Shown here: positions 9,190-61,429 of the stretch, one piece after another
Numbering within the stretch: the first letter of the stretch is position 1
How the letters are laid out: every line of letters starts with the position of its first letter
From: Chitinophagales bacterium
GTDB lineage: Bacteria; Bacteroidota; Bacteroidia; Chitinophagales; CAIOSU01
Direction of reading: 5' to 3'
DNA: 64,000 nucleotides
Assembly: GCA_026003335.1 (NCBI GenBank)
Contig: BPHB01000001.1
Coordinates: 704,591-768,590, forward strand
The notes under the pieces: generated by a model
Seen by the model: the letters and a program-made list of their open reading frames with translations, nothing else
The model's database searches: none
Told to the model about the DNA's origin: nothing
Position numbers and translations under genes: made by a program

Positions 9190-10134
9190 ATGAAAAAGTG
9201 GATGGAGATAGTCGGAATTGTTGCTCTCGTAATTTTTAATATGACCACAGCATGGGCACAGCAGGATCCCATGTACAGTATGTATATGTTCAATGGTCTC
9301 TCGGTTAATCCTGCTTATGCCGGAAGTCGCGACAGGCTTGCCATTACAGCCCTTTACCGGCACCAATGGACCGGTCTGGACGGGGCCCCGAAAACAGCAG
9401 TGTTGGTAGGCCACGCACCCACATTCAACGATAAATTAGGAATAGGATTTACCCTGGTGAGCGACAACATCGGTGTGTTTAACACCGTCACGCTCATGTC
9501 CAGTTATGCCTATCGTATCCGCATCGGCAAAACCGGCAGACTGGCCTTGGGCTTAAGCGTAGAATTGAATTATTTCCATGCCCGCTGGAACACGTTGGCA
9601 CTCAGTGACGAAACTGATTATGTTTTCCAATCCGGTAAAACCAATGTGTTCAGCCCCAATTTCGGAGGAGGTATCTACTACTACTCTGACCGGTTTTATG
9701 CAGGCTTTTCTGTTCCCCATTTCCTGAACAGCAGCCTGACGGAGCACTTCAAGCTTGAAGGCACCAACCTCGTTGCAAGACAATGGAAACACTACTTCTT
9801 CACAGCAGGGGCCATGTTCAGAATTGGCGAAAACGTGCAGTTTAAACCTTCCGTGCTTTTTAAATATGTCAAAAACGCTCCCTTCCAGGCAGACCTGAAT
9901 GTTGCTTTTCTGTTTAAAGAAGCATTTTGGATCGGTGCAGGCTACAGAACTAAGGATGCCGTTGTACTCATGACAGAATATAATTTTGCCAAAGGTGTAA
10001 GAATTGGCTATGCCTATGACATTACCCTTTCAGAACTGAATGACTATTCCTCCGGCACACATGAAATCATGCTGGGCTTTGAATTGACCAAAAAAGATAC
10101 TTACCTGAGCCCACGCAGAATGAGTTATTTCTGA
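9190..10134 (+). CDS. PorP/SprF family T9SS outer-membrane protein (locus A, first copy)
   Basis: PorP/SprF proteins are outer-membrane barrels of about 300 residues needed for secretion or surface attachment of T9SS-dependent adhesins such as SprB. This 314-residue protein has a signal peptide ending in WAQ, then the family opening QQDPMYSMYMFNGLSVNPAY and AGSRDRLAITALYRHQWTG. Strand-like segments alternate throughout (for example YYSDRFYAGFSVPHFLNSSL and VQFKPSVLFKYVKNAPFQAD), and it closes with EIMLGFELTKKDTYLSPRRM. It is closely similar along its whole length to the gene at 14661. A perfect terminator follows at 10170-10207, so it forms its own transcription unit although it lies beside the SprB adhesin. 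Confidence 0.9.
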   Translation: MKKWMEIVGIVALVIFNMTTAWAQQDPMYSMYMFNGLSVNPAYAGSRDRLAITALYRHQWTGLDGAPKTAVLVGHAPTFNDKLGIGFTLVSDNIGVFNTVTLMSSYAYRIRIGKTGRLALGLSVELNYFHARWNTLALSDETDYVFQSGKTNVFSPNFGGGIYYYSDRFYAGFSVPHFLNSSLTEHFKLEGTNLVARQWKHYFFTAGAMFRIGENVQFKPSVLFKYVKNAPFQADLNVAFLFKEAFWIGAGYRTKDAVVLMTEYNFAKGVRIGYAYDITLSELNDYSSGTHEIMLGFELTKKDTYLSPRRMSYF

Positions 10135-10169
10135 TGCAGGCAATCCCAAAAGAAAGGCCCAACCCCTCC

Positions 10170-10207
10170 GGGTCGCTGACATAAGCCTCAGCGACCCTTT
10201 TTTTTTT
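10170..10207 (+). terminator. Rho-independent terminator after the first porP
   Basis: GGGTCGCTGA (10170-10179) and TCAGCGACCC (10188-10197) form a perfect 10-base-pair stem with an 8-base loop, followed by ten T residues (10198-10207). It separates porP from the downstream adhesin gene. Confidence 0.9.
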
Positions 10208-10285
10208 ACCAGCATGACCAATACCACAAGTATTGAGGAAATCATCCCAAATGAAAAAATTAATACTTACAAACGTTTTAATAAT

Positions 10286-10317
10286 TTTGACTTTTAGGTT
10301 TAATCTACATACTTTAG
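10286..10317 (+). promoter_or_regulatory. Promoter of the SprB adhesin gene (locus A)
   Basis: TTTG (10286-10289), exactly 20 bases, then TACTTTAG (10310-10317), seven of eight positions matching TAnnTTTG counting the two free ones. It lies between the terminator and the adhesin start at 10382, so the adhesin and second porP have their own promoter. An overlapping TAATTTTG (10282-10289) is an exact -7 box but lacks a -33 partner. Confidence 0.5.
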
Positions 10318-10381
10318 AGACTCCTGTTCCCTCCTGCCCGAAAAATGCTGATTTTTGAATGAAGGTATTAATATCCTTGTG

Positions 10382-13300
10382 ATGCAAGCACGGCTAATCC
10401 TTTTACTGTGGTTTATGGGATACGGCTGCTTTTATGTGCAGGCTCAATGTCCGGCTGATCTGGCAAACCCTTCTGTGACAGGGGTTAGCTGCAACAAAGG
10501 CAGTGATGGCAGCATCCATCTTATCAACTTCCAGGGAACCCCACCTTATACCTTCTTATGGTCCACAGGAAATACCGGCAGTTCCCTTACCGACATTCCT
10601 GCCGGCACATACAGTGTCACCATCACCGATGGAGCTGGCTGCAGGGATACCATCAGCTCCATCGTGGTTACACAACCGGGTGCTTTTGTATATAACGTGA
10701 TTATTAAAAATGTAACCTGCCCGGGAGGCAGCGATGGATCCCTTACCTTCTTCCTTTCCGGAGGCACTCCGCCCTACACGTACCTATGGCTCAATGCCGC
10801 TACGGGCGATACCCTTGGCACTACCAAAGATCTCACCGGGCTGAAGGCAGGCATTTATCAGCTTGACGTTACCGATAATAATGGTTGCACAGGCAGAATC
10901 TTTTACCTTATTGCCGAACCACAGCCCATGAATATTCAGGGCACTATAAACTCCGTTTCATGCCCTGGAGGATCAAATGGAAGTATTCTGCTCACCGTTA
11001 CCGGGGGTACGGGCACAAAAACATATCAATGGTCAAGCGGAGAGAATTCGAAAAACCTGCTGAACAAACCTGCCGGTACCTATAGTGTGACTGTCACCGA
11101 TGTCAACCGGTGCATAGCAACGCGGACATTCACTATTAATGCACCAGACTCTCTGAGAGCCAATGGAACACCTTCCCCCGTATCATGCCATGGTCAACAA
11201 GATGGAGCAATTGACATTTCTCCTTCAGGAGGCACTCCCCCTTACAGCTTTTTATGGTCTGACAGCTCCTCGGATGAAGACCGCAATAATCTTGCACCCG
11301 GGCAATATTGCCTTACTATAAGCGATGCCAATGGTTGCCTGAGCGCACCGTTTTGTTTCACAATACAGGAGCCCCAACCCCTATCAGTATCCGGAACAAT
11401 TTCTCCTGCTTCATGCAATACAGCTTCTGACGGGTCCGTAACGCTATCCGTAAGTGGCGGCACTCCGCCTTATAGTTATCAATGGTCAAATAATAGTACA
11501 TCATCCCAACTCAACGGCTTATCTCCGGGCTCTTACTCGGTAACTGTAACCGATGATAACGGATGCACTCAAGCGGCTTCATTCCTGATTGAACCGGCTG
11601 GCAATATTACCCTTTCACTGGGTGTTGTACATGCTTATTGCGGCACTTCCAACGGAGCAGTTTATACAGGAATCAGCGGGGGCACCCCCCCTTATCAATT
11701 TATCTGGAACAACGGCTTTAGCACCCCCTTCGCGGAAGAGCTTTCGGCAGGAGTATATTCCATTACTGCTACCGATGCCAACGGTTGTTCTGCCTCTGCA
11801 GTTGCACTGGTAAATGATACCGGAAGCCTTGCCCTGCAGGTATCCGCTACTCCGGCCCTCTGTGGTGCAGGAGCAAGTGGCACTGTTAACCTGACCGTGT
11901 CCGGAGGTCTTGCGCCCTATTCCTACTTCTGGAGCACAACCGATACAACGGAAGACCTTGTGGGATTACCGGCAGGAAACTACAGCGTAACCGTGAGCGA
12001 TAATAATGGATGTGCTGTTGTAGCATATGTGGAGATACAGGAAACCAGCGGCCTTAGCCTAAGTCTCTCTACCTCACCCTCCACATGTGGAGAAGCAACC
12101 GGCACGGCCTCAATAGCTGTAAACGGTGGTACCGCTCCGTATAGGTATGTTTGGTCCACCGGTGATTCAGCCATGGCGGTAAACAACCTGGCTGCCGGAA
12201 TTTATAGCATCACGGCTACCGATGCTAACGGGTGCAGCGCAACTGCCTGGGTGACTATTACCGATACCGGTGCACCTACACTTACTTTTTCTACTTCTGA
12301 TGCTTCCTGTGCCGGAAATGATGGAAGCATATCTGTCCAGGTAAACGGTGGGCTGGTACCCTACTCCTACCAGTGGTCAACGGGTGATTCTACCTCTGCC
12401 ATCACCGGTTTAGCGGCAGGTTCGTATACTTTAACAGTAACCGATGCTGCCGGCTGTGCAGCTGCCGCTGTTAGGGAACTATATGCATCTCCGGGCATTA
12501 TCGCAGCGGCGGACAGAGAGGAGCCTTCCTGTTATAACTACGAGGATGGTAGCATTGACATATCCATCAGTCAGGGCACCGCACCTTTTTCATTCTTCTG
12601 GTCAACCGGAGCGTTTACAGAAGACCTGGATAGTTTGTCCGCAGGAAATTACTTTATAACCATTACCGATGGCAGTGCCTGTTCGGTTGCCATGTCTATC
12701 ATACTGGATGCCCCGGATTCCATTCAAATTACTCCGGATATTACCCGGCCTGCCTGCAACGGCAGTATGGATGGAGCAATAACGATCAATGTCTCAGGAG
12801 GCCAACCGCCTTTCGCCTATGACTGGACAACCGGAGATACTTCCCATATACTTACCGGACTTTCTGCAGGAAACTATATAGTTACTGTCAGTGATGCAAA
12901 CGATTGTTCAACCACCCAAACCATTACCATTGAAGAACCAGACTCTTTGTCTATCATCATAACAGATGTGTCGGACATCTCCTGCCCTGGCGCACAGGAC
13001 GGAAGTATTACCATTCAGGTCAGTGGAGGAACATTTCCCTATTTCTTTAACTGGTCAAACCAGGATAGCACACAAAACGTTTTTGGACTGGCACCGGGCG
13101 AGTTCTCAGTGACTGTAACCGACATCAATGGCTGTAAAGATTCCTCTGATATTATAACCGTTGCAGATGCGGACTCCATGCTGCTGACTGCCAACATTGT
13201 ACAGCCTACGTGTACCACAACCGGCAGCATTACCTTAAGCGTGAGCGGGGGCAAAAATCCTTACACTTTCCTCTGGTCAAACGGGGTTGATACTTCTCTG

Positions 13301-14659
13301 CTGGACGGTCTGAGCGGTGGCGGAGAATATGTGGTTACAGTAACCGATGCTCACGGATGCACTTTGTCTGATACTTTTCTCATTGTAGAGCCCCCTGTAA
13401 TAGATGTACTTATCACCATACAAGACACCATTGCCTGTGCAGGAGATTCCAGCGGAACCATCTGCGCCAGTGTGGATGGAGTGCCTCCTCCGCACTTCTA
13501 CCTGTGGTCTAATGGGTATACCACAGCCTGTGTCAGCGGTCTGCCTGCCGGGATGTATGCGGTAACGGTATCTGATGGACAGGGATGTGAAGCCTACATG
13601 GACAGCATTTTCATTCACCAGCCTGAGCCGATAACCATTACGCCAGTAAACATTAACGGCATTAGCTGTATAGGCAACTCCGATGGATCGGCTGGAGTAA
13701 GCGCAGGCGGAGGCACGCCTCCTTTCACCTTTCAATGGAGCAATGGTGACACGGGCAACTTTGCTGATGAGTTACCGGCCGGACCTGTGACCGTGACAGC
13801 CACAGACTCCCGCGGTTGTACGGCTACATTAACTATTCTCATCCAGCAACCCCAGCCTTTTGATTTCAGTAATTCGGAGGTAAGAGGAGTTACCTGCGAC
13901 ACGATGCAGGATGGCTCCATTCTGGTAATCCTGTCAGGCGGCAGTGCGCCTTACACATTTTTATGGAATGATACATTCACCGGCCCTGTCCGCAATAATC
14001 TGGCTTTGGGCAACTATACTGTGACAGTAACAGATGCCCGCGGATGCACGGCAGAAAATCAGTTTGAAATCACCGGACCCCGATGCAATTCACCCCCGGT
14101 AGCTGGTGACGATACCCTTTCCTTTTACATTTGTGAAAATGATACCATTCATATTGCCGTATTGCTCAATGACTTTGACCCTGACGGAGACGCTCTGTTT
14201 GTACAGGTCATCCTGCAGCAGCCTGCTCACGGAACGGTAAGGATTAATCCCACCCAAACCATCACGTACGCGCCTGACCCGAATTTCACCGGAACGGATT
14301 CTTTTTCCTACCTGGTTTGCGATCAGGGCCAACCACCCCAGCTATGCGATACCGGCCAGGTAGTGGTTGTTGTGCAGCCCTGCCGTCCAAACATTTTTAT
14401 ACCCAACGGATTTTCTCCTAACGGAGACGGCACCAATGATGAGTTTGAAATACCGGGCATAGAATCGTATCCTGACAACGAACTTCTGATATTTAACCGC
14501 TGGGGTAATAAAGTAAAAGAATATAAAGGCTATGACAATTCCTGGAGAGGTACCAACGAAAAAGGGGAGCCCCTCCCGGACGGGACATACTACTATATCC
14601 TCAAGCTCAAAGATCAGGACAATACTATATTCACCGGTTATGTAATAATCCATCGTTAA
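10382..14659 (+). CDS. Giant SprB-repeat surface adhesin with gliding-motility C-terminal (CHU_C) domain, locus A
   Basis: A cell-surface adhesin exported by the T9SS. After a signal peptide (MQARLILLLWFMGYGCFYVQ, then AQ) come 16 SprB-type repeats of about 70-80 residues. Each has a 'SC.G..DGSI' opening, a 'SGGTPPY.Y.WS' core and a 'AG.Y.VTVTD.NGC' close. Then follows a cadherin-like/Ig-like domain (about 1240-1335, with VLLNDFDPDGD and TYAPDPNFTGTDSFSY) and a CHU_C domain (about 1340-1425, with FIPNGFSPNGDGTNDEF and LPDGTYYYIL), which directs T9SS export. The repeats differ strongly from each other, so they are old. Start: the open frame begins at a TTG at 10355, but the ATG at 10382 starts the signal peptide directly. 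The next gene (porP) begins one base after its stop, so the two are co-transcribed and probably partners. Confidence 0.9.
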   Translation: MQARLILLLWFMGYGCFYVQAQCPADLANPSVTGVSCNKGSDGSIHLINFQGTPPYTFLWSTGNTGSSLTDIPAGTYSVTITDGAGCRDTISSIVVTQPGAFVYNVIIKNVTCPGGSDGSLTFFLSGGTPPYTYLWLNAATGDTLGTTKDLTGLKAGIYQLDVTDNNGCTGRIFYLIAEPQPMNIQGTINSVSCPGGSNGSILLTVTGGTGTKTYQWSSGENSKNLLNKPAGTYSVTVTDVNRCIATRTFTINAPDSLRANGTPSPVSCHGQQDGAIDISPSGGTPPYSFLWSDSSSDEDRNNLAPGQYCLTISDANGCLSAPFCFTIQEPQPLSVSGTISPASCNTASDGSVTLSVSGGTPPYSYQWSNNSTSSQLNGLSPGSYSVTVTDDNGCTQAASFLIEPAGNITLSLGVVHAYCGTSNGAVYTGISGGTPPYQFIWNNGFSTPFAEELSAGVYSITATDANGCSASAVALVNDTGSLALQVSATPALCGAGASGTVNLTVSGGLAPYSYFWSTTDTTEDLVGLPAGNYSVTVSDNNGCAVVAYVEIQETSGLSLSLSTSPSTCGEATGTASIAVNGGTAPYRYVWSTGDSAMAVNNLAAGIYSITATDANGCSATAWVTITDTGAPTLTFSTSDASCAGNDGSISVQVNGGLVPYSYQWSTGDSTSAITGLAAGSYTLTVTDAAGCAAAAVRELYASPGIIAAADREEPSCYNYEDGSIDISISQGTAPFSFFWSTGAFTEDLDSLSAGNYFITITDGSACSVAMSIILDAPDSIQITPDITRPACNGSMDGAITINVSGGQPPFAYDWTTGDTSHILTGLSAGNYIVTVSDANDCSTTQTITIEEPDSLSIIITDVSDISCPGAQDGSITIQVSGGTFPYFFNWSNQDSTQNVFGLAPGEFSVTVTDINGCKDSSDIITVADADSMLLTANIVQPTCTTTGSITLSVSGGKNPYTFLWSNGVDTSLLDGLSGGGEYVVTVTDAHGCTLSDTFLIVEPPVIDVLITIQDTIACAGDSSGTICASVDGVPPPHFYLWSNGYTTACVSGLPAGMYAVTVSDGQGCEAYMDSIFIHQPEPITITPVNINGISCIGNSDGSAGVSAGGGTPPFTFQWSNGDTGNFADELPAGPVTVTATDSRGCTATLTILIQQPQPFDFSNSEVRGVTCDTMQDGSILVILSGGSAPYTFLWNDTFTGPVRNNLALGNYTVTVTDARGCTAENQFEITGPRCNSPPVAGDDTLSFYICENDTIHIAVLLNDFDPDGDALFVQVILQQPAHGTVRINPTQTITYAPDPNFTGTDSFSYLVCDQGQPPQLCDTGQVVVVVQPCRPNIFIPNGFSPNGDGTNDEFEIPGIESYPDNELLIFNRWGNKVKEYKGYDNSWRGTNEKGEPLPDGTYYYILKLKDQDNTIFTGYVIIHR

Positions 14660-14660
14660 G

Positions 14661-15614
14661 ATGAAAAAGATTCGCCCCATCCTTGATCTGACCGTCTTGC
14701 TCACCCTGGTATTGGTACAGGCTCCTCCGCTGCGGGCGCAACAGGATGCTATGTACAGTATGTATATGTTTAATGGCTTAGCCCTTAACCCCGCGTATGC
14801 TGGTGCCCGCGACAGGGCTACCATAGTGGCCCTGTATCGCCACCAATGGACAGGCCTTGATGGTGCCCCCCAAACCCTATCGCTGAGCGGTCACTCTCCT
14901 TTGCTGAATGATAAAATCGGGCTGGGACTTTCGTTGACCAACGATCGCATCAGCATTTTTAACCGGCTGGCTATTACAGGGCATTATGCTTTTCGGATCA
15001 ATATTCGCAATAAAGGCAAGCTGGCTCTCGGGCTGAGCGTAACGTTTCATCAGATTATTGCACGATGGGGAGATATTACCCTCAACGAAATGAATGATCA
15101 AGCCTTCCAACAAAGCCGCGAAAGCCTCATCACACCCAACTTCGGTGCCGGTATTTATTACTACATGGATAAGTTCTATGCTGGATTTTCGGTGCCGAAT
15201 TTCTTAAATATGAGCCTGAAAGAAAATGTACGATTTGAGGGTACAGCCGATATCGCCCGGTTCTGGAAACATTACTTCTTTACAGCAGGCATGATGTTCA
15301 GAATAACCGATAAGGTGAAGTTTAAGCCATCGGTACTTTTTAAGTATGTAAGAAATGCCCCGTTTGAAGCTGACCTTAATGCTTCGTTTCTTTTTATGGA
15401 TGCCTTCTGGCTGGGAGCCAGTTACCGAACCGGTGATGCAGTTTTATTCATGGTTGAATATAACTTCAGCAAAGGCATTCGCATTGGCTATGCCTATGAC
15501 TACACACTTACCGAGCTGACTGACTACAATTCCGGTACCCATGAAATCATGGTGGGTTATGAGTTTGTAAAAAAGGATACATACCTTACTCCGCGAAGAA
15601 TGAGCTACTTCTAG
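14661..15614 (+). CDS. PorP/SprF family T9SS outer-membrane protein (locus A, second copy)
   Basis: A 317-residue outer-membrane protein with a signal peptide (ending LRAQ) and the family opening QQDAMYSMYMFNGLALNPAY. It lines up with the gene at 9190 along its full length, including the ending KKDTYLTPRRMSYF, so the two are paralogues, probably from a local duplication. The ATG lies one base after the stop of the SprB adhesin, showing translational coupling. By analogy with SprF, it is expected to help export or hold that adhesin at the outer membrane. Which of the two copies does so is unknown, but transcription favours this one. Confidence 0.92.
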   Translation: MKKIRPILDLTVLLTLVLVQAPPLRAQQDAMYSMYMFNGLALNPAYAGARDRATIVALYRHQWTGLDGAPQTLSLSGHSPLLNDKIGLGLSLTNDRISIFNRLAITGHYAFRINIRNKGKLALGLSVTFHQIIARWGDITLNEMNDQAFQQSRESLITPNFGAGIYYYMDKFYAGFSVPNFLNMSLKENVRFEGTADIARFWKHYFFTAGMMFRITDKVKFKPSVLFKYVRNAPFEADLNASFLFMDAFWLGASYRTGDAVLFMVEYNFSKGIRIGYAYDYTLTELTDYNSGTHEIMVGYEFVKKDTYLTPRRMSYF

Positions 15615-36928: not shown

Positions 36929-38350
36929 TTAGTCTTCAATGTAATAAATCCAGGCATCTTTGTATTGCGGGTCTGTTTTAAGCTGATTGAGCTTTTCCAG
37001 ACCCTCCTTAAGCGTGCCGGTGTTTTTCAGGAAAATGTAATAGATATCTTTGGATTTACGGTAAAATATGCCAGCATCAATTCCTTTCTGGCGGAGGTCA
37101 GCAGCTTTTCTTGCTGCATTGTTTTCATTGGAAAAGGCTCCTACTACAATCATGTATTTTGCCGGTGGTGGCGGGTCGGTTTTCAGCTGGCTTCCCGGAC
37201 GCATGTCTATATCGCTTGCGGGAATGCTCTTCAGAAAATCCTGTTGAAGCTGTAATAATTCTTCTTTAGCATTTCTAAGGGAGTCCTGAAACTCCCGCAC
37301 CATTAATTCAATTTCGTTTTTAAGCTGGCTAATTTGTTCGTCTTTTTCATTGATAGCTTGCTGCAGATCGTCATTCTGCTGACGAAGTTCAGCAAGCTGC
37401 TGCTCCTGATCAGCCTGGCGGTTCTGAAGATTCTTTAGGGTTTCAATCAGCCCTTTGTCTTCGCGCTTGCCAAATTTAATGCCCAGCAGAAGCTCATGTG
37501 TTCCACCCGCATAATTTTTTAATTCGTTCAACACCCAGTCATAAGCATACCCTACCTGCACCCGGTCATGTATGCGAAATCCTCCGGCAAATGACACCGC
37601 ATAGTCATAGCGATATTGTGCAGCCACCCATGCCAGCTCCTTATAGCGGAAAGAGGCTCCTGCATCTACCTGAAAGGTATTGAATCGGTCGGTTGCCCTG
37701 AACATGGCATTCGGGGCAATGTAAAACACTTCCTGAATAACCGGAATATCATAGGACAGCGTAGCCAGATAATGCCTTCCCATCTGATACGACCGATCGT
37801 CATTATTTTGAAATTTTATACTTGTTCCCAGCACCTGAGGTACGGAAAAACCGGCATGCAATCCTTTGAAGCGATAACTTACTCCGGCCGAGCCGTCAAA
37901 GTTCAAGCCTCGCTGACGGTCGCTGGTCAGAACCGATTCGTTGGGGTCATGCACCCGAGCCCTGTTAAAGTCTACACTCACCTCCTGCACACCCACGGCA
38001 ATACCCAAAGCTAGCACGTGCTCTCCGAAACGCAAATGATAGGCATAATCCAGTTGTACTCCCAGTCTTTCAATGATATTGGTAATATCACTGTACACAT
38101 ACCCCCCTAGTCCGATTTTATCCTTGATAAGGCCGTCTATAGTAGCCGCGCGCGTTTCGGGGGCTCCCTTAAAATCAGCCCATTGCTTTCGGTAGATCAC
38201 GAAAAGTTGGGTAGCTTCTTTTTCTCCGGTGCGGGCTGGATTATAAATAAAGGGGTTGTAGTAATACTGTGAATACAGTGGTATCTGCTGGGCGTTGACT
38301 TCTGCTACCAAGGCCGCCACAGCTATCATCAGGGATGTAAACCGTTTCAT
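36929..38350 (-). CDS. PorP/SprF family protein with coiled coil and C-terminal SPOR domain (locus B)
   Basis: 473 residues in three parts. First, a PorP/SprF outer-membrane protein (1-290): signal peptide to NAQ, then QIPLYSQYYYNPFIYNPART and YRKQWADFKGAPETRAATI, and KNYAGGTHELLLGIKFGKRE at the end of the barrel. Second, a coiled coil (about 300-375; EKDEQISQLKNEIELMVREF). Third, a SPOR-like domain (about 395-473; YMIVVGAFSNENNAARKAAD, ending DAWIYYIED). PorP/SprF proteins normally stop at about 310 residues; SPOR domains bind denuded peptidoglycan glycan strands in the periplasm. The fusion therefore suggests an outer-membrane adhesin partner tied to the cell wall. It lies 14 bases after the SprB adhesin gene in the same operon. 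Confidence 0.88.
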   Translation of the reverse strand: MKRFTSLMIAVAALVAEVNAQQIPLYSQYYYNPFIYNPARTGEKEATQLFVIYRKQWADFKGAPETRAATIDGLIKDKIGLGGYVYSDITNIIERLGVQLDYAYHLRFGEHVLALGIAVGVQEVSVDFNRARVHDPNESVLTSDRQRGLNFDGSAGVSYRFKGLHAGFSVPQVLGTSIKFQNNDDRSYQMGRHYLATLSYDIPVIQEVFYIAPNAMFRATDRFNTFQVDAGASFRYKELAWVAAQYRYDYAVSFAGGFRIHDRVQVGYAYDWVLNELKNYAGGTHELLLGIKFGKREDKGLIETLKNLQNRQADQEQQLAELRQQNDDLQQAINEKDEQISQLKNEIELMVREFQDSLRNAKEELLQLQQDFLKSIPASDIDMRPGSQLKTDPPPPAKYMIVVGAFSNENNAARKAADLRQKGIDAGIFYRKSKDIYYIFLKNTGTLKEGLEKLNQLKTDPQYKDAWIYYIED

Positions 38351-38364
38351 GGGTTAAGTTTAGA

Positions 38365-41300
38365 CTATCTTAAAATGGTAATGGCCCCCTTCAACACAAA
38401 ATCAGATTCCGGACAATGTATTACATAGTAATAGGTGCCATCCGGTAACGGTTGTCCGTTGAGGGTGCCGTCCCAGTCATTTTGATAATTCTTGGTCACA
38501 AATATTTTGCTCCCCCATCTGTTAAATACACCCACCTCGCAGCCCGGATATACTTCTATATTTGGTACTACCCAGTTGTCATTATGCCCGTCTCCGTTGG
38601 GCGTAAAGAGATTGGGCGGATTGAACAGAAAATCTTCTGCCACCTCCACCAGCACACTATCTACTGCCACACATCCATTTTCATCGGTGATGACTACCGT
38701 ATAAAGTATCGTACTCAGAGGCTTAGCCACAGGAGTAGCCGCAGTAGAATCATCCAGATAAGTGGAAGGCGACCAAACATAGCTCACTCCGCCTTCGGCA
38801 ACAAGCTTTATACTGACTCCTTTACTGATCAAAGTATCTTCCGTTACACGAATACTGAGCGGGTCAAAGGCAGTAACCTGAATGCGTCCGGTATCCGCAC
38901 AGGTATTAGCATCCACTACCGTGATGGAATACTCACCCGTTTGATTGACATAGATGGGCACCGTATCTTGCCCGGTTGACCATTGGTAGTTTAAGCCGGG
39001 AGCTGTTGCCACCGTGAGACGCACACTATCATAAGCGCAAATTACAGCTCCCGGAGGATCCGCTTGTATGGTGGCATCCGGCAGGGCAAACACGCGCACC
39101 TGACCGACCACGGTGTCAGCACATTCCTGATTGGAAATAGCAATGAGCGTGACAGTGTACACTCCAGGAGCCTGATATTTATGCACTGGATTGTATTGAG
39201 ATGAAGTTATTCCGTCACCGAAGTTCCAGAAAACACTGTCTATAAAGCCGGAGGCAATTGCTGTCTGGTTAATGAACTCAGTAAAGCGGCCCAAACACTC
39301 ATCATCTGCAATAAAGCGTGCAATAGGATAAGGGGGAGGATTCACTACCTGAGAGATGGTCACCGTACACTGGTGCGCATCAGTTACTGTTACCGAGTAA
39401 GTTCCGGGAGCTACGGAAACCAGATTTTTGGTTGTATCCCCGTTTGACCACAGATAGGAATAAGGAGGTGTGCCCCCGCTTACAGAAATCTGCACATCAC
39501 CGGATGCCACACCGCAAAAGAGTCCTTTGGCCTGAGCGGTCAGCTCCAGTTTAGGCGGTTCACCCACAATGCCGGTTTGGGTTGCAAGGCAGCCATTCTG
39601 GTCAGTTACGATCACCGAATAGCTTCCGGCACCTAGTCCGCTTAAATCTTGTGTGAATGCAAAATTTGACCACAGATAGGAATAAGGAGGTGTGCCCCCG
39701 GAAACGGTAAGATCCAGCGCTCCATCTTTAAATCCAAAGCAACTTACGCTATCCGATGTAATGGCAGTAATGATAGCTGTAGGCTGCACGATCACAAACG
39801 TATCAGACTGCTGGCAGCCATTGCCATCCGTAACCGTTACGGCATACGTTCCGGCAAACAGACTATCTATAACACGGGTTGTTCTGTTGTTGGACCAGTA
39901 GTAGGTATAATTGCCACTTCCTCCTGTTACGTTAAGTTCAATTCTCCCGTCATTGAAGCCAAAGCAACGCACATTTCTGATTAATGCTGCCAGCTCCAGA
40001 CTATCGGGGTCATGGATTGTGTAAGAGAACGTTTGCTGGCATCCGGCAAGATCAGTAACAGTAACATTATAAGTACCTGCTGCAAGATTGCTCACATCCT
40101 CGCTGGAAGCCCCGGTGCTCCAGGCAAAGCTATATCCGGCACTACCACCTGACACCGTCAGGTCTATTGAGCCCTGAGCAAATCCGAAACATGGGTTATC
40201 ACTGATGGAGGCAATGGCTGTAATGGGCTGAGGCTGCGTAAGCCGCACGGAATCTACCTTTACACAACCTCTGCTATCGGTAACCAACACGGTGTAGCTA
40301 CCTGCCGGTATTCCCGTAATGTCTTCGGTAGTGGCAAAATTTGACCATAAAAAACTGTAAGGAGGAGTGCCCCCTGAAGCTGTAAGGTCAATGCTGCCGG
40401 TGGCTCCGTTGTTACATGCAGGGTTGATTACGGTCAAAGATGTACTGAGTGGTGAAGGTTGGGTAATCGTGAATGTAGTATCTGCCGTGCAGCCGTTGTT
40501 GTCTGTAACGGTTAGTCCATAGTTTCCGGCTTGGATGTTGTTAATGAGCTGGGTTGTTGCCCCGTTTGACCAGAGGAAAGAATAAGGGGAGGCTCCACCG
40601 CTGACGGTAATAAATATGGAACCGTCCGAGCCGTTATTGCACGTCACATGCTGCATGGTTGCTTGCAGTGCAAGCGCAGCAGGCTCATTTACCACAGCCG
40701 TCAGGGTCTCCGTACAACCATTGGAGTCGGTGATTGTTACCATGTAGCTCCCTCCGCTTACATTAGATAAATCCTCCGAGGTTGCCCCGTTTGACCATTG
40801 AAACTGGTAGGCAGGTGTACCTCCTACGACAACCAAATTGACCGCACCGGAGCCACCGTTGCAAGCTATATGACTTACCGATACTGTGGCCTGTAGTTTT
40901 TGAGGTTCAATAATCTGATATGTTTTGATGCTCAGACAATTGCTGTCATCTGTAATTGTTACGGTGTAAATGCCAGGAGACAAGCCATTAAGGTCTTCGG
41001 TAGACTGGCCGGATGACCAGCTAAATGTATAAGGGGCAATACCTCCGCTCACGGTGAGGTCTATTGCTCCGTCATTATTTCCGGTACATGTAACAGGAGA
41101 AACATTTCCGCTTACCGTGATGTTGGAAGCGGAAGTAACCGAAACCGCTGCGCTTTTACTGCATCCGTTGAAGTCGGTAACGGTGTATATGTAAGTACCA
41201 TTAGGCAGATTGCCAATGTCCTCGGTTGTAGCTCCGTTAGACCAGAAAAATGTATAAGGCGGGTCGCCTCCGCTCACCGTAAGATCAATACTGCCGGTGC

Positions 41301-44300
41301 TATCACCACTGCAGACAACAGGAGAGGCCACAGCAGTGATAATCAAAGGAGCCGGTTGTGAAATAGCATAAGAGGCGCTTACCGAACAACCGCCTGCATC
41401 AGAAACCGTCACCGCATAGGTGCCTGCGGTCAAACCGGCAACATCTTCAGTGGTATCGCCCGTTGACCAGATAAATCGGTAAGGGAGCCTGCCTCCACCC
41501 ACAGTAATATCAATGGCGCCAGAATGTCCGCCAGCACAGGCTACATGAGTGAGATTGGCCAGACTTAAAAAGAGAGCAGCAGGCTCTGTGAGTGTAAAGG
41601 TGGCTGAATCTGAGCAGCCGATATTATCGGTAACCGTTACTTTATAGGTCCCTCCAGCAAGACCACTCAGATCTTCGCTGCCAGAGCCGTTTGACCATAG
41701 AAAAGTGTAAGGTGGCACTCCTCCGCTTATGGTCAGATCTATACTTCCATCCCCGCTGCCATTACAACTGACTTCCTGCACGATTGCACTTATGAGGATA
41801 TCAGACACTGCATGGATAGTAACAGTGGTTGTTGCTGAACAGCCATTCGCATCTGTTACAATCACCGTGTAATTACCCGAGGTTATGGCAGGCAAATCCT
41901 GCGAGGAAGCGAAATTTGACCACAGATAGGAATAAGGCGGCACACCCCCGCTGACACTCAAATCAATACTTCCGGTATTATCGCCTGCACAAACCACATC
42001 TGTTTTGTTGTAGGCAAGCGCTATTGGTGGAGGTTCATTCACCACATAAGAAGCGGAAGCCGTGCATCCGTTAGCATCTGTGACTGTTACACCATAGCTG
42101 CCGGCAGAAAGATTTGTATTATCTTCCAGGGACGACCCGTTTGACCAGTTATATGCATAAGGAGGAATTCCTCCGGTTACCGTAATATCTATCAGACCGT
42201 TAGTACCCCCTTTACAACTGACATCCGTGATTTTTGCCAACGTAATGTGCAGAGGATTGGGCTGAGTTAACGTAACCGAAACAGAAGCCGTGCAGCCGTT
42301 AGCATCTGTGACTGTCACACCATAGCTACCTGCCTGCAGGTCAGCAAGATCTTCTGTAGTAGCCCCATTTGTCCAAACGTAACTATAGGGAGCGGTTCCT
42401 CCGGATACGGTAATATTAATGGCTCCGCTTGAATCTCCCGTACACAGATTGTTCTGTAAGGAGGTAATTGCTATCGTCAGAAGTGAAGGCTCTGTAATGA
42501 TGACACTCACCGTAGCCTGACATCCGGCAGCATCTTTGGCGATGACATTGTAGGTGCCGGGAGGTTTATTCATAAATACCGGTGAAGACTGAAAGAATAT
42601 GCCATCCGTAGAAAAGCTGTAAGGGCTGATGCCATTGAGTGCAACCAAAGAAAAGTATCCATCATTAGCACCTCTGCAACTAACATGGCGCAGGCTGTCT
42701 ACGGAAAGGAGAATGGCTGTTTGATTTTCCAGTATAAAGGTGGTGGTCTTTTCACAACCGTTTGCATCACGCACCAGAGCCACGTAAGTGCCAGCTGTGA
42801 GGTTGTTGAAACGCCCGGAAGGCTGAAAAGGGCTGCCATTGAGGGAAAACTGGTAAGGGGTGGGCCCCCCAGAGGCTGCCACCTCCACAAAACCATTGTT
42901 GACACCAGCACAACTGGGATCACCGGAATCAACAGGTGTAATAATCAGTGCAGGCGGATCAATAAGTGTTACGTCATTGGAAACAGCCGAACATCCGTTA
43001 TCATCGGTAACTGTTACACGGTAGGTGCCCGGTCCAAGACCAGTGGCTGTTTGTGTGGTTTGCACGGGAGTAGTGTTCCATGTGTATGAATAAGGAGGCT
43101 GCCCACTGCTGGGTAAAGCAGTTGCTGTGCCATCCATGGCTCCGTTACAGGTAGGATGGGTACCGGTGGCAGTGACAGCCGGATTTTGTACAGAAGTGAT
43201 AACCAATGGTGGCGCTGATTCAACTGAACAGTTAAAACTGTTGGTAACAACCACAGTGTAGCTGCCCGGTTGATTAGCATTGTATGTTGATGAATTGGTG
43301 CCTACATTTCCTCCATTAAGTTTCCATTGATAGCTGCTGATCGTGCCACTACCCGGTGAAGCTGTTGCAGTGAGAGTAACCGAGCTCCCCTGACAGAAAA
43401 AAGTACCCCCGCTCACGGTGACCGTTGGTTTCTGGGCAACATTTAACACTACGGGAGCTGAAGTACTGGAGCAACCGTTGGAATTTGTCACTATTACAGT
43501 AAAGCTGCCTGCCTGCGTGGCTGTATAGGTGGCGGTGGTGGCTCCCGCAATATTTGCTCCGTTACGCTGCCATTGATAGCTGCTAATCGTGCCACTACCC
43601 GGTGAAGCATTAGCATTCAGCCTTACAGAGTCTCCGACACAAAAGGTAGATACCCCCGTAAGATTGACAATAGTTACCGAAGGCGGATCAGTAACCGTGA
43701 TATTCTGCGTTCTGGAACACTGTCCCAGTGTATAGGTAATGGTGTAGGTACCCGCTGTGGCTGGCGCGGTGAATAAGCTACCGGTGAGGCATCCGCTGCA
43801 GGAAGCTGAGAACGTGCCTCCTGAAGGGGTTGCGGTCAGTGTGCGCGTAGCCCCGGGACACATGGATGCCGATGAGGAGGTAATAGTCAGGTTATTATTC
43901 TGCCGATACTGCAATACGGCCGAGGTCAGAGAGTAAGAAGTACAGAAAAATGAGTCAACCAAAACCCGGATAGTACCCGAAAAGGTTGCCGTCCAGTTTA
44001 CGGAAGCCCTATTTGACAGGCATTCCGGTCCGCCATCATCGTTAAAAAAAATGTTATTGCCGGCTAAATCATATCCGGTCAGCATGGTGTTGTAGGAGGA
44101 AAGGCAGGTGCTGAAGGTATAACTGGCGTTTTGCACCACATTAAACGTAGCGTAGGTGCCTCCACCGATCTGCATTTGGCCGAAACTACCACAGGGTGGC
44201 GCCCCTCCGGCTACCCAGAACACATTATCATTGGGACACTGAGCAGCCGCAAAAAACGAAAAAAATGTAAAAGACAAAATAATAAAGTACCATCGCCAAA

Positions 44301-44316
44301 ACACAAATTGGGCCAT
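38365..44316 (-). CDS. Giant SprB-repeat surface adhesin with PKD and CHU_C domains (locus B)
   Basis: 1983 residues, T9SS-exported. Signal peptide (WRWYFIILSFTFFSFFAAAQ); an N-terminal beta domain (about 27-140, CSSYNTMLTGYDLAGNNIFF-like CLSSYNTMLTGYD); Ig-like repeats with ISSYQWQRNGANIAGATT (about 145-375). Then 17 SprB-type repeats (about 375-1690), each with the IDLTVSGGTPPYSY.WSNG core and a VTVTD.NGC close. A PKD domain follows (about 1690-1770, VFWNFGDGITSSQYNPVHKY), two further Ig-like segments, and the CHU_C export domain (about 1900-1983, LFTPNGDGHNDNW and LPDGTYYYVIH). The first three repeats are less regular than the rest. Probably a filamentous adhesin for attachment or gliding. 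A PorP-SPOR protein follows directly, presumably its outer-membrane partner. Confidence 0.92.
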   Translation of the reverse strand: MAQFVFWRWYFIILSFTFFSFFAAAQCPNDNVFWVAGGAPPCGSFGQMQIGGGTYATFNVVQNASYTFSTCLSSYNTMLTGYDLAGNNIFFNDDGGPECLSNRASVNWTATFSGTIRVLVDSFFCTSYSLTSAVLQYRQNNNLTITSSSASMCPGATRTLTATPSGGTFSASCSGCLTGSLFTAPATAGTYTITYTLGQCSRTQNITVTDPPSVTIVNLTGVSTFCVGDSVRLNANASPGSGTISSYQWQRNGANIAGATTATYTATQAGSFTVIVTNSNGCSSTSAPVVLNVAQKPTVTVSGGTFFCQGSSVTLTATASPGSGTISSYQWKLNGGNVGTNSSTYNANQPGSYTVVVTNSFNCSVESAPPLVITSVQNPAVTATGTHPTCNGAMDGTATALPSSGQPPYSYTWNTTPVQTTQTATGLGPGTYRVTVTDDNGCSAVSNDVTLIDPPALIITPVDSGDPSCAGVNNGFVEVAASGGPTPYQFSLNGSPFQPSGRFNNLTAGTYVALVRDANGCEKTTTFILENQTAILLSVDSLRHVSCRGANDGYFSLVALNGISPYSFSTDGIFFQSSPVFMNKPPGTYNVIAKDAAGCQATVSVIITEPSLLTIAITSLQNNLCTGDSSGAINITVSGGTAPYSYVWTNGATTEDLADLQAGSYGVTVTDANGCTASVSVTLTQPNPLHITLAKITDVSCKGGTNGLIDITVTGGIPPYAYNWSNGSSLEDNTNLSAGSYGVTVTDANGCTASASYVVNEPPPIALAYNKTDVVCAGDNTGSIDLSVSGGVPPYSYLWSNFASSQDLPAITSGNYTVIVTDANGCSATTTVTIHAVSDILISAIVQEVSCNGSGDGSIDLTISGGVPPYTFLWSNGSGSEDLSGLAGGTYKVTVTDNIGCSDSATFTLTEPAALFLSLANLTHVACAGGHSGAIDITVGGGRLPYRFIWSTGDTTEDVAGLTAGTYAVTVSDAGGCSVSASYAISQPAPLIITAVASPVVCSGDSTGSIDLTVSGGDPPYTFFWSNGATTEDIGNLPNGTYIYTVTDFNGCSKSAAVSVTSASNITVSGNVSPVTCTGNNDGAIDLTVSGGIAPYTFSWSSGQSTEDLNGLSPGIYTVTITDDSNCLSIKTYQIIEPQKLQATVSVSHIACNGGSGAVNLVVVGGTPAYQFQWSNGATSEDLSNVSGGSYMVTITDSNGCTETLTAVVNEPAALALQATMQHVTCNNGSDGSIFITVSGGASPYSFLWSNGATTQLINNIQAGNYGLTVTDNNGCTADTTFTITQPSPLSTSLTVINPACNNGATGSIDLTASGGTPPYSFLWSNFATTEDITGIPAGSYTVLVTDSRGCVKVDSVRLTQPQPITAIASISDNPCFGFAQGSIDLTVSGGSAGYSFAWSTGASSEDVSNLAAGTYNVTVTDLAGCQQTFSYTIHDPDSLELAALIRNVRCFGFNDGRIELNVTGGSGNYTYYWSNNRTTRVIDSLFAGTYAVTVTDGNGCQQSDTFVIVQPTAIITAITSDSVSCFGFKDGALDLTVSGGTPPYSYLWSNFAFTQDLSGLGAGSYSVIVTDQNGCLATQTGIVGEPPKLELTAQAKGLFCGVASGDVQISVSGGTPPYSYLWSNGDTTKNLVSVAPGTYSVTVTDAHQCTVTISQVVNPPPYPIARFIADDECLGRFTEFINQTAIASGFIDSVFWNFGDGITSSQYNPVHKYQAPGVYTVTLIAISNQECADTVVGQVRVFALPDATIQADPPGAVICAYDSVRLTVATAPGLNYQWSTGQDTVPIYVNQTGEYSITVVDANTCADTGRIQVTAFDPLSIRVTEDTLISKGVSIKLVAEGGVSYVWSPSTYLDDSTAATPVAKPLSTILYTVVITDENGCVAVDSVLVEVAEDFLFNPPNLFTPNGDGHNDNWVVPNIEVYPGCEVGVFNRWGSKIFVTKNYQNDWDGTLNGQPLPDGTYYYVIHCPESDFVLKGAITILR

Positions 44317-57838: not shown

Positions 57839-60800
57839 ATGCGTGCTTTAAAAATCATTGCGGCTTTATTATTTAGCTGCCTAACTTTTACTATACTTTC
57901 CGCTCAACTGCCCCAGGCAATAAAATATCAGGCAGTAGCCAGAAATGAAAGCGGTAGCATTCTAAGCAATCAAAATATCAGCGTACGGATCAGCATCCTG
58001 GACAGTGCGGCCGGAGGGGTGCCTGTGTACACCGAAATACATAAAACAGGTACAAACCCTTACGGACTATTTTCCATACAAATCGGAGAAGGGCTCACTC
58101 CTACGGGTGTATTCGCCAATATTCCCTGGGCAACCGGTGATAAATATTTGAAGGTTGAACTTGACCCAGGAGGAGGCTCTAACTATTTTTTAATGGGTAT
58201 CTCTAAAATGCTGAGCGTTCCCTATGCCTTGTATGCTGGCCATGCCGCTTCAAGCAATGACTATATTACCGATGTACATTACGATGCGGCTTCTGATATC
58301 CTCACCATCACCGAAGGAGGTATAAGTCATACCACCACCATTCGGGAGAAAGCAGATGACCTGAGTGACAACGTCCTGTCTGACCTCTTAGATGTATCCG
58401 GCATGCCTGCTGTTGGCCACATTCTAAAGTGGAACGGAACGCAATGGACACCCGCCCAGGATGAAGTAAACAATCAAACGCTCTCTATGATCGGTGGGAC
58501 CGTTCTTTCCATCAGCGATGGCAATACCGTGGACCTTTCTTCTTTTCTGGATAATACTGACAACCAAACCTTGCAGTTCAATCCCTCTACCAACACTCTA
58601 TCTATTTCCAATGGCAATTCCGTCAGTCTGAACAGCCTCGTTTCTGGGGCATTTAACACAGCTTTCCAGTATAATGCCGGCATCCTTTCCATCACCGATA
58701 ATGGGGGCACGCTGAGTGTGACCATTCCTGATAACGTCAATGATGCGGATGCCGACCCAACTAATGAAATACAGAACATTACCCTTTCGGGAAACATCCT
58801 TTCCCTCTCCCGGAGCGGAGGATCTATTGACCTCTCTGCCTTTCTGGACAACACCGATAATCAAACCCTCTCTTTTAATGCCGGCATCCTGTCCATCAGC
58901 GGTGGCAACTCCGTAACCATCCCTGACAATGTCAATGATGCGGATGCCGACCCAACCAATGAAATACAGAACATTACCCTTTCGGGAAACATCCTTTCCC
59001 TCTCCCGGAGCGGAGGATCTATTGACCTCTCTGCCTTTCTGGATAACACCGATAATCAAACCCTCTCTTTTAATGCCGGCATCCTGTCTATCAGCGGTGG
59101 CAACTCCGTAACCATCCCTGACAATGTCAATGATGCGGATGCCGACCCAACCAATGAACTCATTCAAAGTGTAAGCTTTAATGGTACATCCCTTACAATT
59201 ACGGATGCTGGAGGCACCCAAGCCGTAAATCTCAGTTCTTTGATAAATGATGCAGATGCAGATCCTACCAATGAAATTCAACACCTCGTCAAAGTGAATG
59301 ACACCACCCTCTCACTCACAGGCAGCGGAGTGAATGTAGTTATTCCTACAAGTGCAGGACCGCAAGGACCTGCCGGCAATGATGGTGTTGGCATTACCAG
59401 CACGGTTGACAATGGCAACGGTACCTTTACCCTCTTCTTCTCCGATGGCTCTTCCTTTACCACCTCTAACCTCACAGGACCTCAAGGACCTGCCGGACCT
59501 CAGGGACCCCAGGGACCACAAGGACCTCAGGGCAATGATGGCGTTGGTATTACCAGCACGGTTGACAATGGCAACGGTACCTTTACCCTCTTCTTCTCCG
59601 ATGGCTCTTCCTTCACCACCTCTAACCTCACAGGACCGCAAGGACCTCAGGGACCACAAGGACCTCAGGGACCGCAAGGACCTCAGGGACCTCAGGGACC
59701 TCAAGGACCACAAGGACCTCAAGGACCTCAGGGCAATGATGGCGTTGGCATTACCAGCACGGTTGACAATGGCAACGGTACCTTTACCCTCTTCTTCTCC
59801 GATGGCTCTTCCTTCACCACCTCTAACCTCACAGGACCTCAAGGACCTGCCGGACCACAAGGACCACAGGGACCTGCCGGACCTCAGGGACCCCAGGGAC
59901 CACAAGGACCGCAAGGACCTCAAGGACCTCAGGGCAATGATGGCGTTGGTATTACCAGCACGGTTGACAATGGCAACGGTACCTTTACCCTCTTCTTCTC
60001 CGATGGCTCTTCCTTCACCACCTCTAACCTCACAGGACCGCAAGGACCTGCCGGACCAGTAGGACCTCAGGGACCACAAGGACCACAAGGACCACAAGGA
60101 CCGCAAGGACCGCAAGGACCAGTAGGACCTCAAGGACCACAAGGACCTCAGGGCAGTGATGGCGTTGGTATTACCAGCACGGTTGACAATGGCAACGGCA
60201 CCTTTACCCTCTTCTTCTCCGATGGCTCTTCCTTCACCACCTCTAACCTCACAGGACCTCAAGGACCTCAGGGACCACAAGGACCACAGGGACCTGCCGG
60301 ACCTCAGGGACCCCAGGGACCACAAGGACCGCAAGGACCTCAAGGACCTCAGGGCAATGATGGCGTTGGCATTACCAGCACGGTTGACAATGGCAACGGT
60401 ACCTTTACCCTCTTCTTCTCCGATGGCTCTTCCTTCACCACCTCTAACCTCACAGGACCTCAAGGACCTGCCGGACCACAAGGACCACAGGGACCTGCCG
60501 GACCTCAGGGACCCCAGGGACCGCAAGGACCGCAAGGACCAGTAGGACCTCAAGGACCACAAGGACCTCAGGGCAGTGATGGCGTTGGTATTACCAGCAC
60601 GGTTGACAATGGCAACGGCACCTTTACCCTCTTCTTCTCCGATGGCTCTTCCTTCACCACCTCTAACCTCACAGGACCGCAAGGACCTGCCGGACCAGTA
60701 GGACCTCAGGGACCACAAGGACCACAAGGACCACAAGGACCGCAAGGACCGCAAGGACCAGTAGGACCTCAAGGACCACAAGGACCTCAGGGCAGTGATG

Positions 60801-61429
60801 GCGTTGGTATTACCAGCACGGTTGACAATGGCAACGGTACCTTTACCCTCTTCTTCTCCGATGGCTCTTCCTTCACCACCTCTAACCTCACAGGACCTCA
60901 AGGACCTGCCGGACCTCAGGGACCTGCCGGACCACAAGGACCCCAGGGACCACAAGGACCTCAAGGACCTCAAGGACCTCAGGGACCTCAAGGACCCAGT
61001 GGAATCTCTATCCTTGCTTCGGCTACCGGAACCACGAACGTTTCCATTGCTGCCAATACAGCCTATACTGCCGTGCCTGGAATGAGTGTCACTTTTGTCC
61101 CCACCCAGTCCACCGTGACGGTCTCCTTTTCTGCCAGTGGTACATTCACCGGAACTTACACTGCAGGTCAGTTTGTCAACTTCAGAATACTTGTAAACGG
61201 AACGGTACAGAATGGCAGAGGAACTTTTGCCCCTGTGGGCGCCTATGATGGTTTTTTTGGAGAGGGGCAAAATACATGGGCCGCAAGCATGGAAATACCT
61301 GTTACCGTTACTCCCAATGTAAACAATACCATTACCATTGAATGGTTTTTTTCTTCTTTATACGCCAATACGCTGTATAATTATCCTGCTACGTATCCTG
61401 AACACCATAGAAGCCTGGTAATACGATAA
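57839..61429 (+). CDS. Large collagen-like surface protein with beta-domain N-terminus and C-terminus
   Basis: 1196 residues. Signal peptide ([16 protein letters not shown]), then a beta domain shared with the gene at 61999 ([20 protein letters not shown] at 24-43; [20 protein letters not shown]). Residues about 270-500 hold 65-residue repeats ([20 protein letters not shown]). Residues 507-1054 are collagen-type Gly-Pro-Gln / Gly-Pro-Ala triplets ([10 protein letters not shown]), broken by eight copies of a 33-residue cassette beginning [20 protein letters not shown]. The C-terminus (about 1055-1196, [20 protein letters not shown]) is beta-rich with no sorting domain recognised and resembles a jelly-roll head. 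Collagen triplets form triple helices; the protein is therefore probably a trimeric fibre. How it is exported is not visible. Confidence 0.88.
58736..59159 (+). repeat. 195-bp tandem repeats (65 residues) in the collagen-like gene
   Basis: Copy 1 runs 58736-58930, copy 2 58931-59125, and a partial copy 3 59126-59159. The period is exactly 195 bases. The start phrase is GTCAATGATGCGGATGCC in each. Copies 1 and 2 differ at a few positions only. Confidence 0.9.
59357..61000 (+). repeat. Nested collagen-like repeat array with eight non-collagen cassettes
   Basis: Collagen triplets (mainly CAAGGACCT, CCGGACCTC-type codons) alternate with eight near-identical cassettes whose first bases lie at 59378, 59534, 59735, 59936, 60155, 60356, 60575 and 60794. 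The distances are 156, 201, 201, 219, 201, 219 and 219 bases, that is, whole numbers of triplet repeats (201 = 67 codons, 219 = 73). The long frame on the opposite strand here (59312-61270) is only a side effect of the repeat. Confidence 0.92.

Follow-up and report, generated by a model that had tools for sequence, protein, structure and literature searches.

A gene in the 64,000-nucleotide stretch of a Chitinophagales bacterium genome analysed here (the window) encodes, in one uninterrupted frame of 473 amino acids, a predicted PorP/SprF outer-membrane β-barrel followed by a long helix and a SPOR domain, and lies directly after the gene of a giant adhesin with a type B T9SS sorting signal. 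The fusion is a recurrent carrier subfamily, neither a one-off nor universal, and we consider it probable that the gene product is a dedicated carrier of the T9SS type B kind that brings its own peptidoglycan anchor and would thereby hold the adhesin static.

The carrier gene occupies window positions 36929-38350 on the reverse strand. Residues 19-290 (37481-38296, reverse strand) matched the Pfam PorP_SprF profile PF11751 with 223.5 bits (cutoff 22.3), the same span being returned by the genome search, and the protein scored 230 bits against TIGR03519, the NCBIfam T9SS PorP family (cutoff 90.55). The AF2 model (mean pLDDT 82, with most of the SPOR domain near 90) ordered the chain as a barrel of about 14 strands from residue 47 to 293, a single helix at residues 299-372, a linker and a β-α-β-β-α-β domain at residues 399-472; its best PDB match was a chain of a T9SS complex, with FadL next, in line with the predicted barrel assignment. 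The helix (74 residues; 37235-37456, reverse strand) is a probable coiled-coil rod, with weak Pfam matches to many coiled-coil families and a heptad-like hydrophobic spacing that was equalled in 3 of 2000 shuffles. The C-terminal segment, residues 396-468 (36947-37165, reverse strand), matched SPOR (PF05036) with 32.3 bits (cutoff 21). The profile searches proposed in the earlier note, which had read the gene as a PorP/SprF-coil-SPOR fusion from the DNA letters and translations, thus returned both domains above their cutoffs with the helix between them. The whole carrier is devoid of cysteine.

Modelled alone, the SPOR segment resembled the solved SPOR structures of RlpA (Z 7.9), CwlC (7.5) and DedD (7.2) and, lower down, those of DamX (5.9) and FtsN (4.7), the top match being an uncharacterised exported protein (6ozd, Z 8.6); since non-SPOR folds start at Z 5.3, the fold evidence is moderate when taken alone. 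Searching the PDB with the single SPOR sequence gave no useful SPOR match, and searching with a SPOR profile matched the SPOR domains of CwlC and FtsN, low-complexity matches to designed repeat proteins having been set aside. Combined with the Pfam score and these profile matches, the fold makes the assignment firm. In a comparison of five close orthologues and of four sequences from a second paralogue group, dN/dS of the SPOR domain was about 0.02-0.06 where dS was measurable, indicating strong purifying selection and a tighter constraint than on the coil. The domain also often surpassed the barrel in conservation (86% versus 69% identity, for instance, between the L050 and L054 loci), and these observations identify it as a working part of the carrier.

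The probable cargo is a T9SS adhesin of 1983 amino acids, encoded by the first gene of the pair (38365-44316, reverse strand), which ends 14 bases upstream of the carrier gene on the same strand, as had been noted before. Its residues 1901-1983 (38368-38616, reverse strand) form a type B T9SS C-terminal sorting domain, with 91.1 bits for CHU_C and 70.9 bits for TIGR04131 (cutoff 35). Between approximately 39397 and 43149 on the same strand lie about 17 SprB repeat units of about 75 amino acids each, counted by eye from the periodic C-x-G landmarks; Pfam recognised 16 SprB stretches (549.8 bits), in good agreement with the 17 repeats of the earlier note, whose observation is thereby confirmed in its essentials. 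The window contains a second SprB-repeat CHU_C adhesin (10355-14659, 14 SprB stretches), flanked by two PorP genes whose products have short, cysteine-free tails (9190-15614), and thus holds both fused and unfused adhesin carriers. Elsewhere in the window, an ORF of 1196 amino acids (57839-61429, forward strand) carries collagen triple-helix repeats (PF01391), unusual for a bacterial surface protein.

A genome-wide profile search detected 19 PorP/SprF genes in the source genome. Consistent with the premise of the earlier note that members of this family normally end after the barrel, 17 of the 19 products terminate in a short tail, 4-26 amino acids past it. The remaining two bear a helix and a SPOR domain, namely the carrier described above and a divergent paralogue of 527 amino acids near position 1308 kb of the genome (G000:C1), whose SPOR domain scored 23.7 bits with PF05036 (cutoff 21); with two fusions among 19 genes, an architecture universal in the family, which the same note had named as part of a refuting outcome, was rejected. 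Three SPOR proteins were found in this genome, two of them the fused carriers. The second fusion gene is preceded by that of a CHU_C adhesin with PKD repeats, which shows that fused carriers also occur with adhesins of another type; a pairing limited to SprB-repeat adhesins was rejected. Directly after this second gene lies one for an 869-residue SprB-repeat protein (L063:189-2798, reverse strand), a possible second cargo.

Beyond the source genome, fusions, full-length or cut by contig ends, were present in all six same-family genomes searched and in two genomes from other families of the order. A scan of species genomes added more from uncultured Bacteroidota labelled Chitinophagales, Sphingobacteriales, Flavobacteriales and others, and a class-wide search of 395 genomes, in which the tails of the top-ranking loci were examined individually with custom SPOR and OmpA profiles, gave further SPOR fusions. 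The final set comprised 38 non-redundant SPOR-fused barrels from at least 15 family groups, with spacers of 83-266 amino acids; the family of L066, a locus whose SPOR-like tail was detected by the custom profile only and not by Pfam, was left out of the count. One genome (G021) carries a third SPOR-fusion copy split into two overlapping frames (L091:6888-8356, equivalent to L064:5889-7357), through a frameshift, a pseudogene or an assembly error. The survey of adhesin adjacency that the earlier note had suggested showed that all 27 SPOR fusions with enough upstream sequence are preceded, in the same orientation, by a gene whose product has a type B signal; the type B profile had been built partly from the adhesins upstream of nine of them, the other 18 being independent.

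In a tree of 83 barrel sequences, built with a quick method and with many supports of only 80-95, 37 of the 38 SPOR-fused barrels grouped in one subfamily, which also contained OmpA-fused barrels and a few with short tails; six switches between SPOR, OmpA and short tail were required. A recent one-off fusion was therefore rejected, and the remaining SPOR fusion (L073) likely represents a separate origin. As judged from these comparisons, the architecture is widespread and conserved, and SPOR and OmpA are exchanged at the same place. The novelty that had been attributed to the fusion holds in that no description of it was found in the open-access papers searched, although the architecture may already be listed in InterPro, but the fusion is no isolated case.

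Four other loci of the source genome have the gene order adhesin, PorP, PorE-like. At each of them PorP has a short tail with Cys-Pro-Arg-Phe or Cys-Pro-Arg-Leu at its end, and is followed within 50 bases by a gene for an OmpA-domain product of about 700 amino acids (L192:8825-10891; L194:8367-10415; L196:4611-6761, reverse strand; L198:3910-5922, reverse strand) with similarity to PorE over nearly the full length, at 273-353 bits, under the strict NCBIfam cutoff of 600. All four PorE-like proteins share the motif Thr-Cys-Cys-Asp-Asp-Ile, which could pair with the tail cysteine of the carriers. At one locus, a tandem pair of PorP genes (L196:6808-9000, reverse strand) separates the gene of a type B adhesin from that of a PorE homologue, which suggests a mixed carrier or two carriers for one substrate. 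No PorE-like gene was found after either fusion of the source genome. Across the loci compared, a PorE-like neighbour accompanied none of 36 fused carriers (28 SPOR and 8 OmpA) versus 8 of 66 unfused ones, a difference in the expected direction that is statistically weak.

The wall-anchor reading is well backed, if indirectly, by the homology and fold of the SPOR domain, its strong selection and the constant pairing with type B adhesins, by the occurrence of OmpA, another peptidoglycan-binding fold, at the place of SPOR in related carriers, and by the presence, in one genome, of PorE-like genes beside unfused carriers and after neither of the fusions. The barrel, given its family and the gene order, would receive the neighbouring adhesin by way of its type B C-terminal signal when the adhesin emerges from the translocon, and would then retain it at the cell surface. 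Below the outer membrane, the helical rod could span up to about 11 nm of the periplasm (74 residues at 0.15 nm), and the SPOR domain at its end would grip glycan strands. The adhesin would thereby be fixed statically to the cell wall, and not to the moving gliding track, with one chain possibly doing the job of the adhesin-PorP-PorE operons and their separate OmpA-type partner.

The earlier note had gone further and suggested that the anchor might be focused at division sites. Characterised SPOR domains indeed recognise denuded, septal glycan (PMC6895207), and binding of this kind would concentrate both carrier and adhesin where cells divide, at the septum and the new poles. The residues involved are known from FtsN, in which changes of Q251, S254, W283, R285 and I313 lowered septal localisation, an S254A mutant retaining it; Q270 and R309 of RlpA are the counterparts of FtsN Q251 and R285, and the β-1 glutamine contacts the glycan (NAM) in FtsN, DamX and RlpA (PMC6895207). 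This glutamine, required in FtsN and DamX and typical of the characterised members, though not a defining feature, is absent from the carrier, where V402 takes the place of FtsN Q251, and valine occupies the position in nearly all SPOR fusions according to profile and family alignments. FtsN S254 corresponds to A405 (serine in most fusions) and, in the profile alignment extended to β-3, FtsN W283 corresponds to I437 (tryptophan in most close fusions) and FtsN R285 to Y439. W467 in β-4 is an invariant column among the fusion SPOR domains and appears equivalent to DamX W416, a residue needed for septal localisation of DamX, the correspondence being obtained by counting from the alignment ends (model residue 93 to DamX 422). 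The glycan site thus looks conserved but altered; with V402 in place of the glutamine and Y439 in place of the FtsN arginine, glycan binding may be weaker or different, and a preference for denuded glycan cannot be assumed. OmpA binds peptide-bearing wall and has no septal preference, and its exchange with SPOR argues that general wall attachment is the selected property. Targeting to division sites is therefore an unlikely reading. An elaboration in which Bacteroidota would sort their type B adhesins by the carrier C-terminus, a cysteine tail conferring movement, PorE or OmpA general static attachment and a modified SPOR domain site-specific placement of giant adhesins at the septum or new poles, appears similarly improbable. 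The interpretation given in the earlier note is thus supported in part, for the wall anchor by homology, selection, pairing and the OmpA exchange, and is unsupported for the focusing on division, given V402 and Y439.

The missing glutamine, together with a spacer that varies in length and can form a coiled coil, would also suit a rod and SPOR domain that act as a module for protein contacts, for instance to oligomerise the carrier or to dock it to T9SS components or division proteins, with no wall binding. The constraint on SPOR exceeding that on the coil, and the replacement of SPOR by a wall-binding fold, point instead to a shared wall-binding job, and we regard such a module as quite unlikely. 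It is very unlikely that the fused carrier rides the gliding track non-covalently, its SPOR domain acting as a transient brake or positioner: the source genome does encode GldJ and GldK, and a cysteine-less SprF still makes short track-like movements (PMC12635249), but the carrier has no cysteine at all and continuous movement conflicts with wall binding. The idea that the fusion stems from an assembly error, from a frameshift or from two genes running together neutrally has in its favour only the absence of the fusion from the literature searched; it was rejected, and can practically be dismissed, because many independent assemblies, and another locus in the source genome, show this architecture, with purifying selection on the SPOR domain also speaking against it.

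The peptidoglycan-anchored carrier, our preferred reading, bears on a current open question, namely which of the type B adhesins are mobile, which are stationary and what keeps the latter in place. The PorE static anchor of the 2025 work was proposed from gene order and microscopy, which fall short of direct proof, and a natural fusion of carrier and wall binder in which OmpA and SPOR alternate provides independent evidence that the periplasmic end of the carrier decides the fate of the adhesin. The fusion also supplies a rule by which static adhesins can be predicted from sequence, and points to a likely role of SPOR domains outside cell division.

Each type B substrate retains a dedicated PorP/SprF carrier as its anchor (PMC9143113, PMC12618676). 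SprF, which carries the gliding adhesin SprB in Flavobacterium johnsoniae, resembles the carrier described here in its PorP/SprF barrel, its periplasmic C-terminus and the position of its gene next to that of a giant adhesin of the SprB type bearing a type B signal (PMC12635249, PMC9143113). The C-terminal tail of SprF is short and its Cys-X-Cys motif is disulfide-linked to GldK of the moving track; when this motif is missing, SprB continues to be exported and is, for the most part, nearly stationary (PMC12635249). The carrier has a rod and a SPOR domain in place of such a tail and lacks the Cys-X-Cys motif, so that an SprF-style disulfide to the gliding track is impossible, although the partner cysteine is conserved in GldK of the source genome (C299 in the alignment with PorK). 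Absence of cysteine alone is no proof of static anchoring, since six short-tailed carriers of the same genome also have no C-terminal cysteine. The other 11 of its 17 short-tailed carriers (L008, L010-L019) carry one cysteine among their ten C-terminal residues, mostly in the form Cys-Pro-Arg-Phe/Leu, a candidate for a disulfide to GldK, in which C299 is present, or to the PorE homologues.

FtsN, DamX, DedD, RlpA and CwlC share the SPOR domain of the carrier by Pfam score and fold (PMC6895207) but are cell-division or wall-lytic proteins and not outer-membrane adhesin carriers, and their glycan-contact residues are changed in the carrier. Closer relatives are the PorP/SprF-OmpA fusions (L065, L067-L071, L074, L089, L090, L157 and L159), in which the same barrel family is followed by a spacer and a C-terminal peptidoglycan-binding fold, with a type B adhesin beside nearly all of those with enough sequence; they differ in having OmpA instead of SPOR and a spacer that sometimes consists of thrombospondin type 3 repeats. 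A static link from type B substrate through PorP to peptidoglycan has likewise been proposed for PorP-PorE-PG1035 of Porphyromonas gingivalis and for Fjoh_3952-3951-3950 of F. johnsoniae, PorP and PorE holding the adhesin (PMC9143113, PMC12618676). Fjoh_3952, a type B adhesin in an operon with a PorE homologue, was seen as static foci only, and PorE was proposed to tie it to the wall (PMC12618676). The wall binder of these systems is a separate OmpA-type PorE, whereas that of the carrier would be the fused SPOR domain, and the carrier locus has no separate protein with TPR, propeller and OmpA domains beside PorP. By analogy, the carrier may work like PorE, but it is not PorE.
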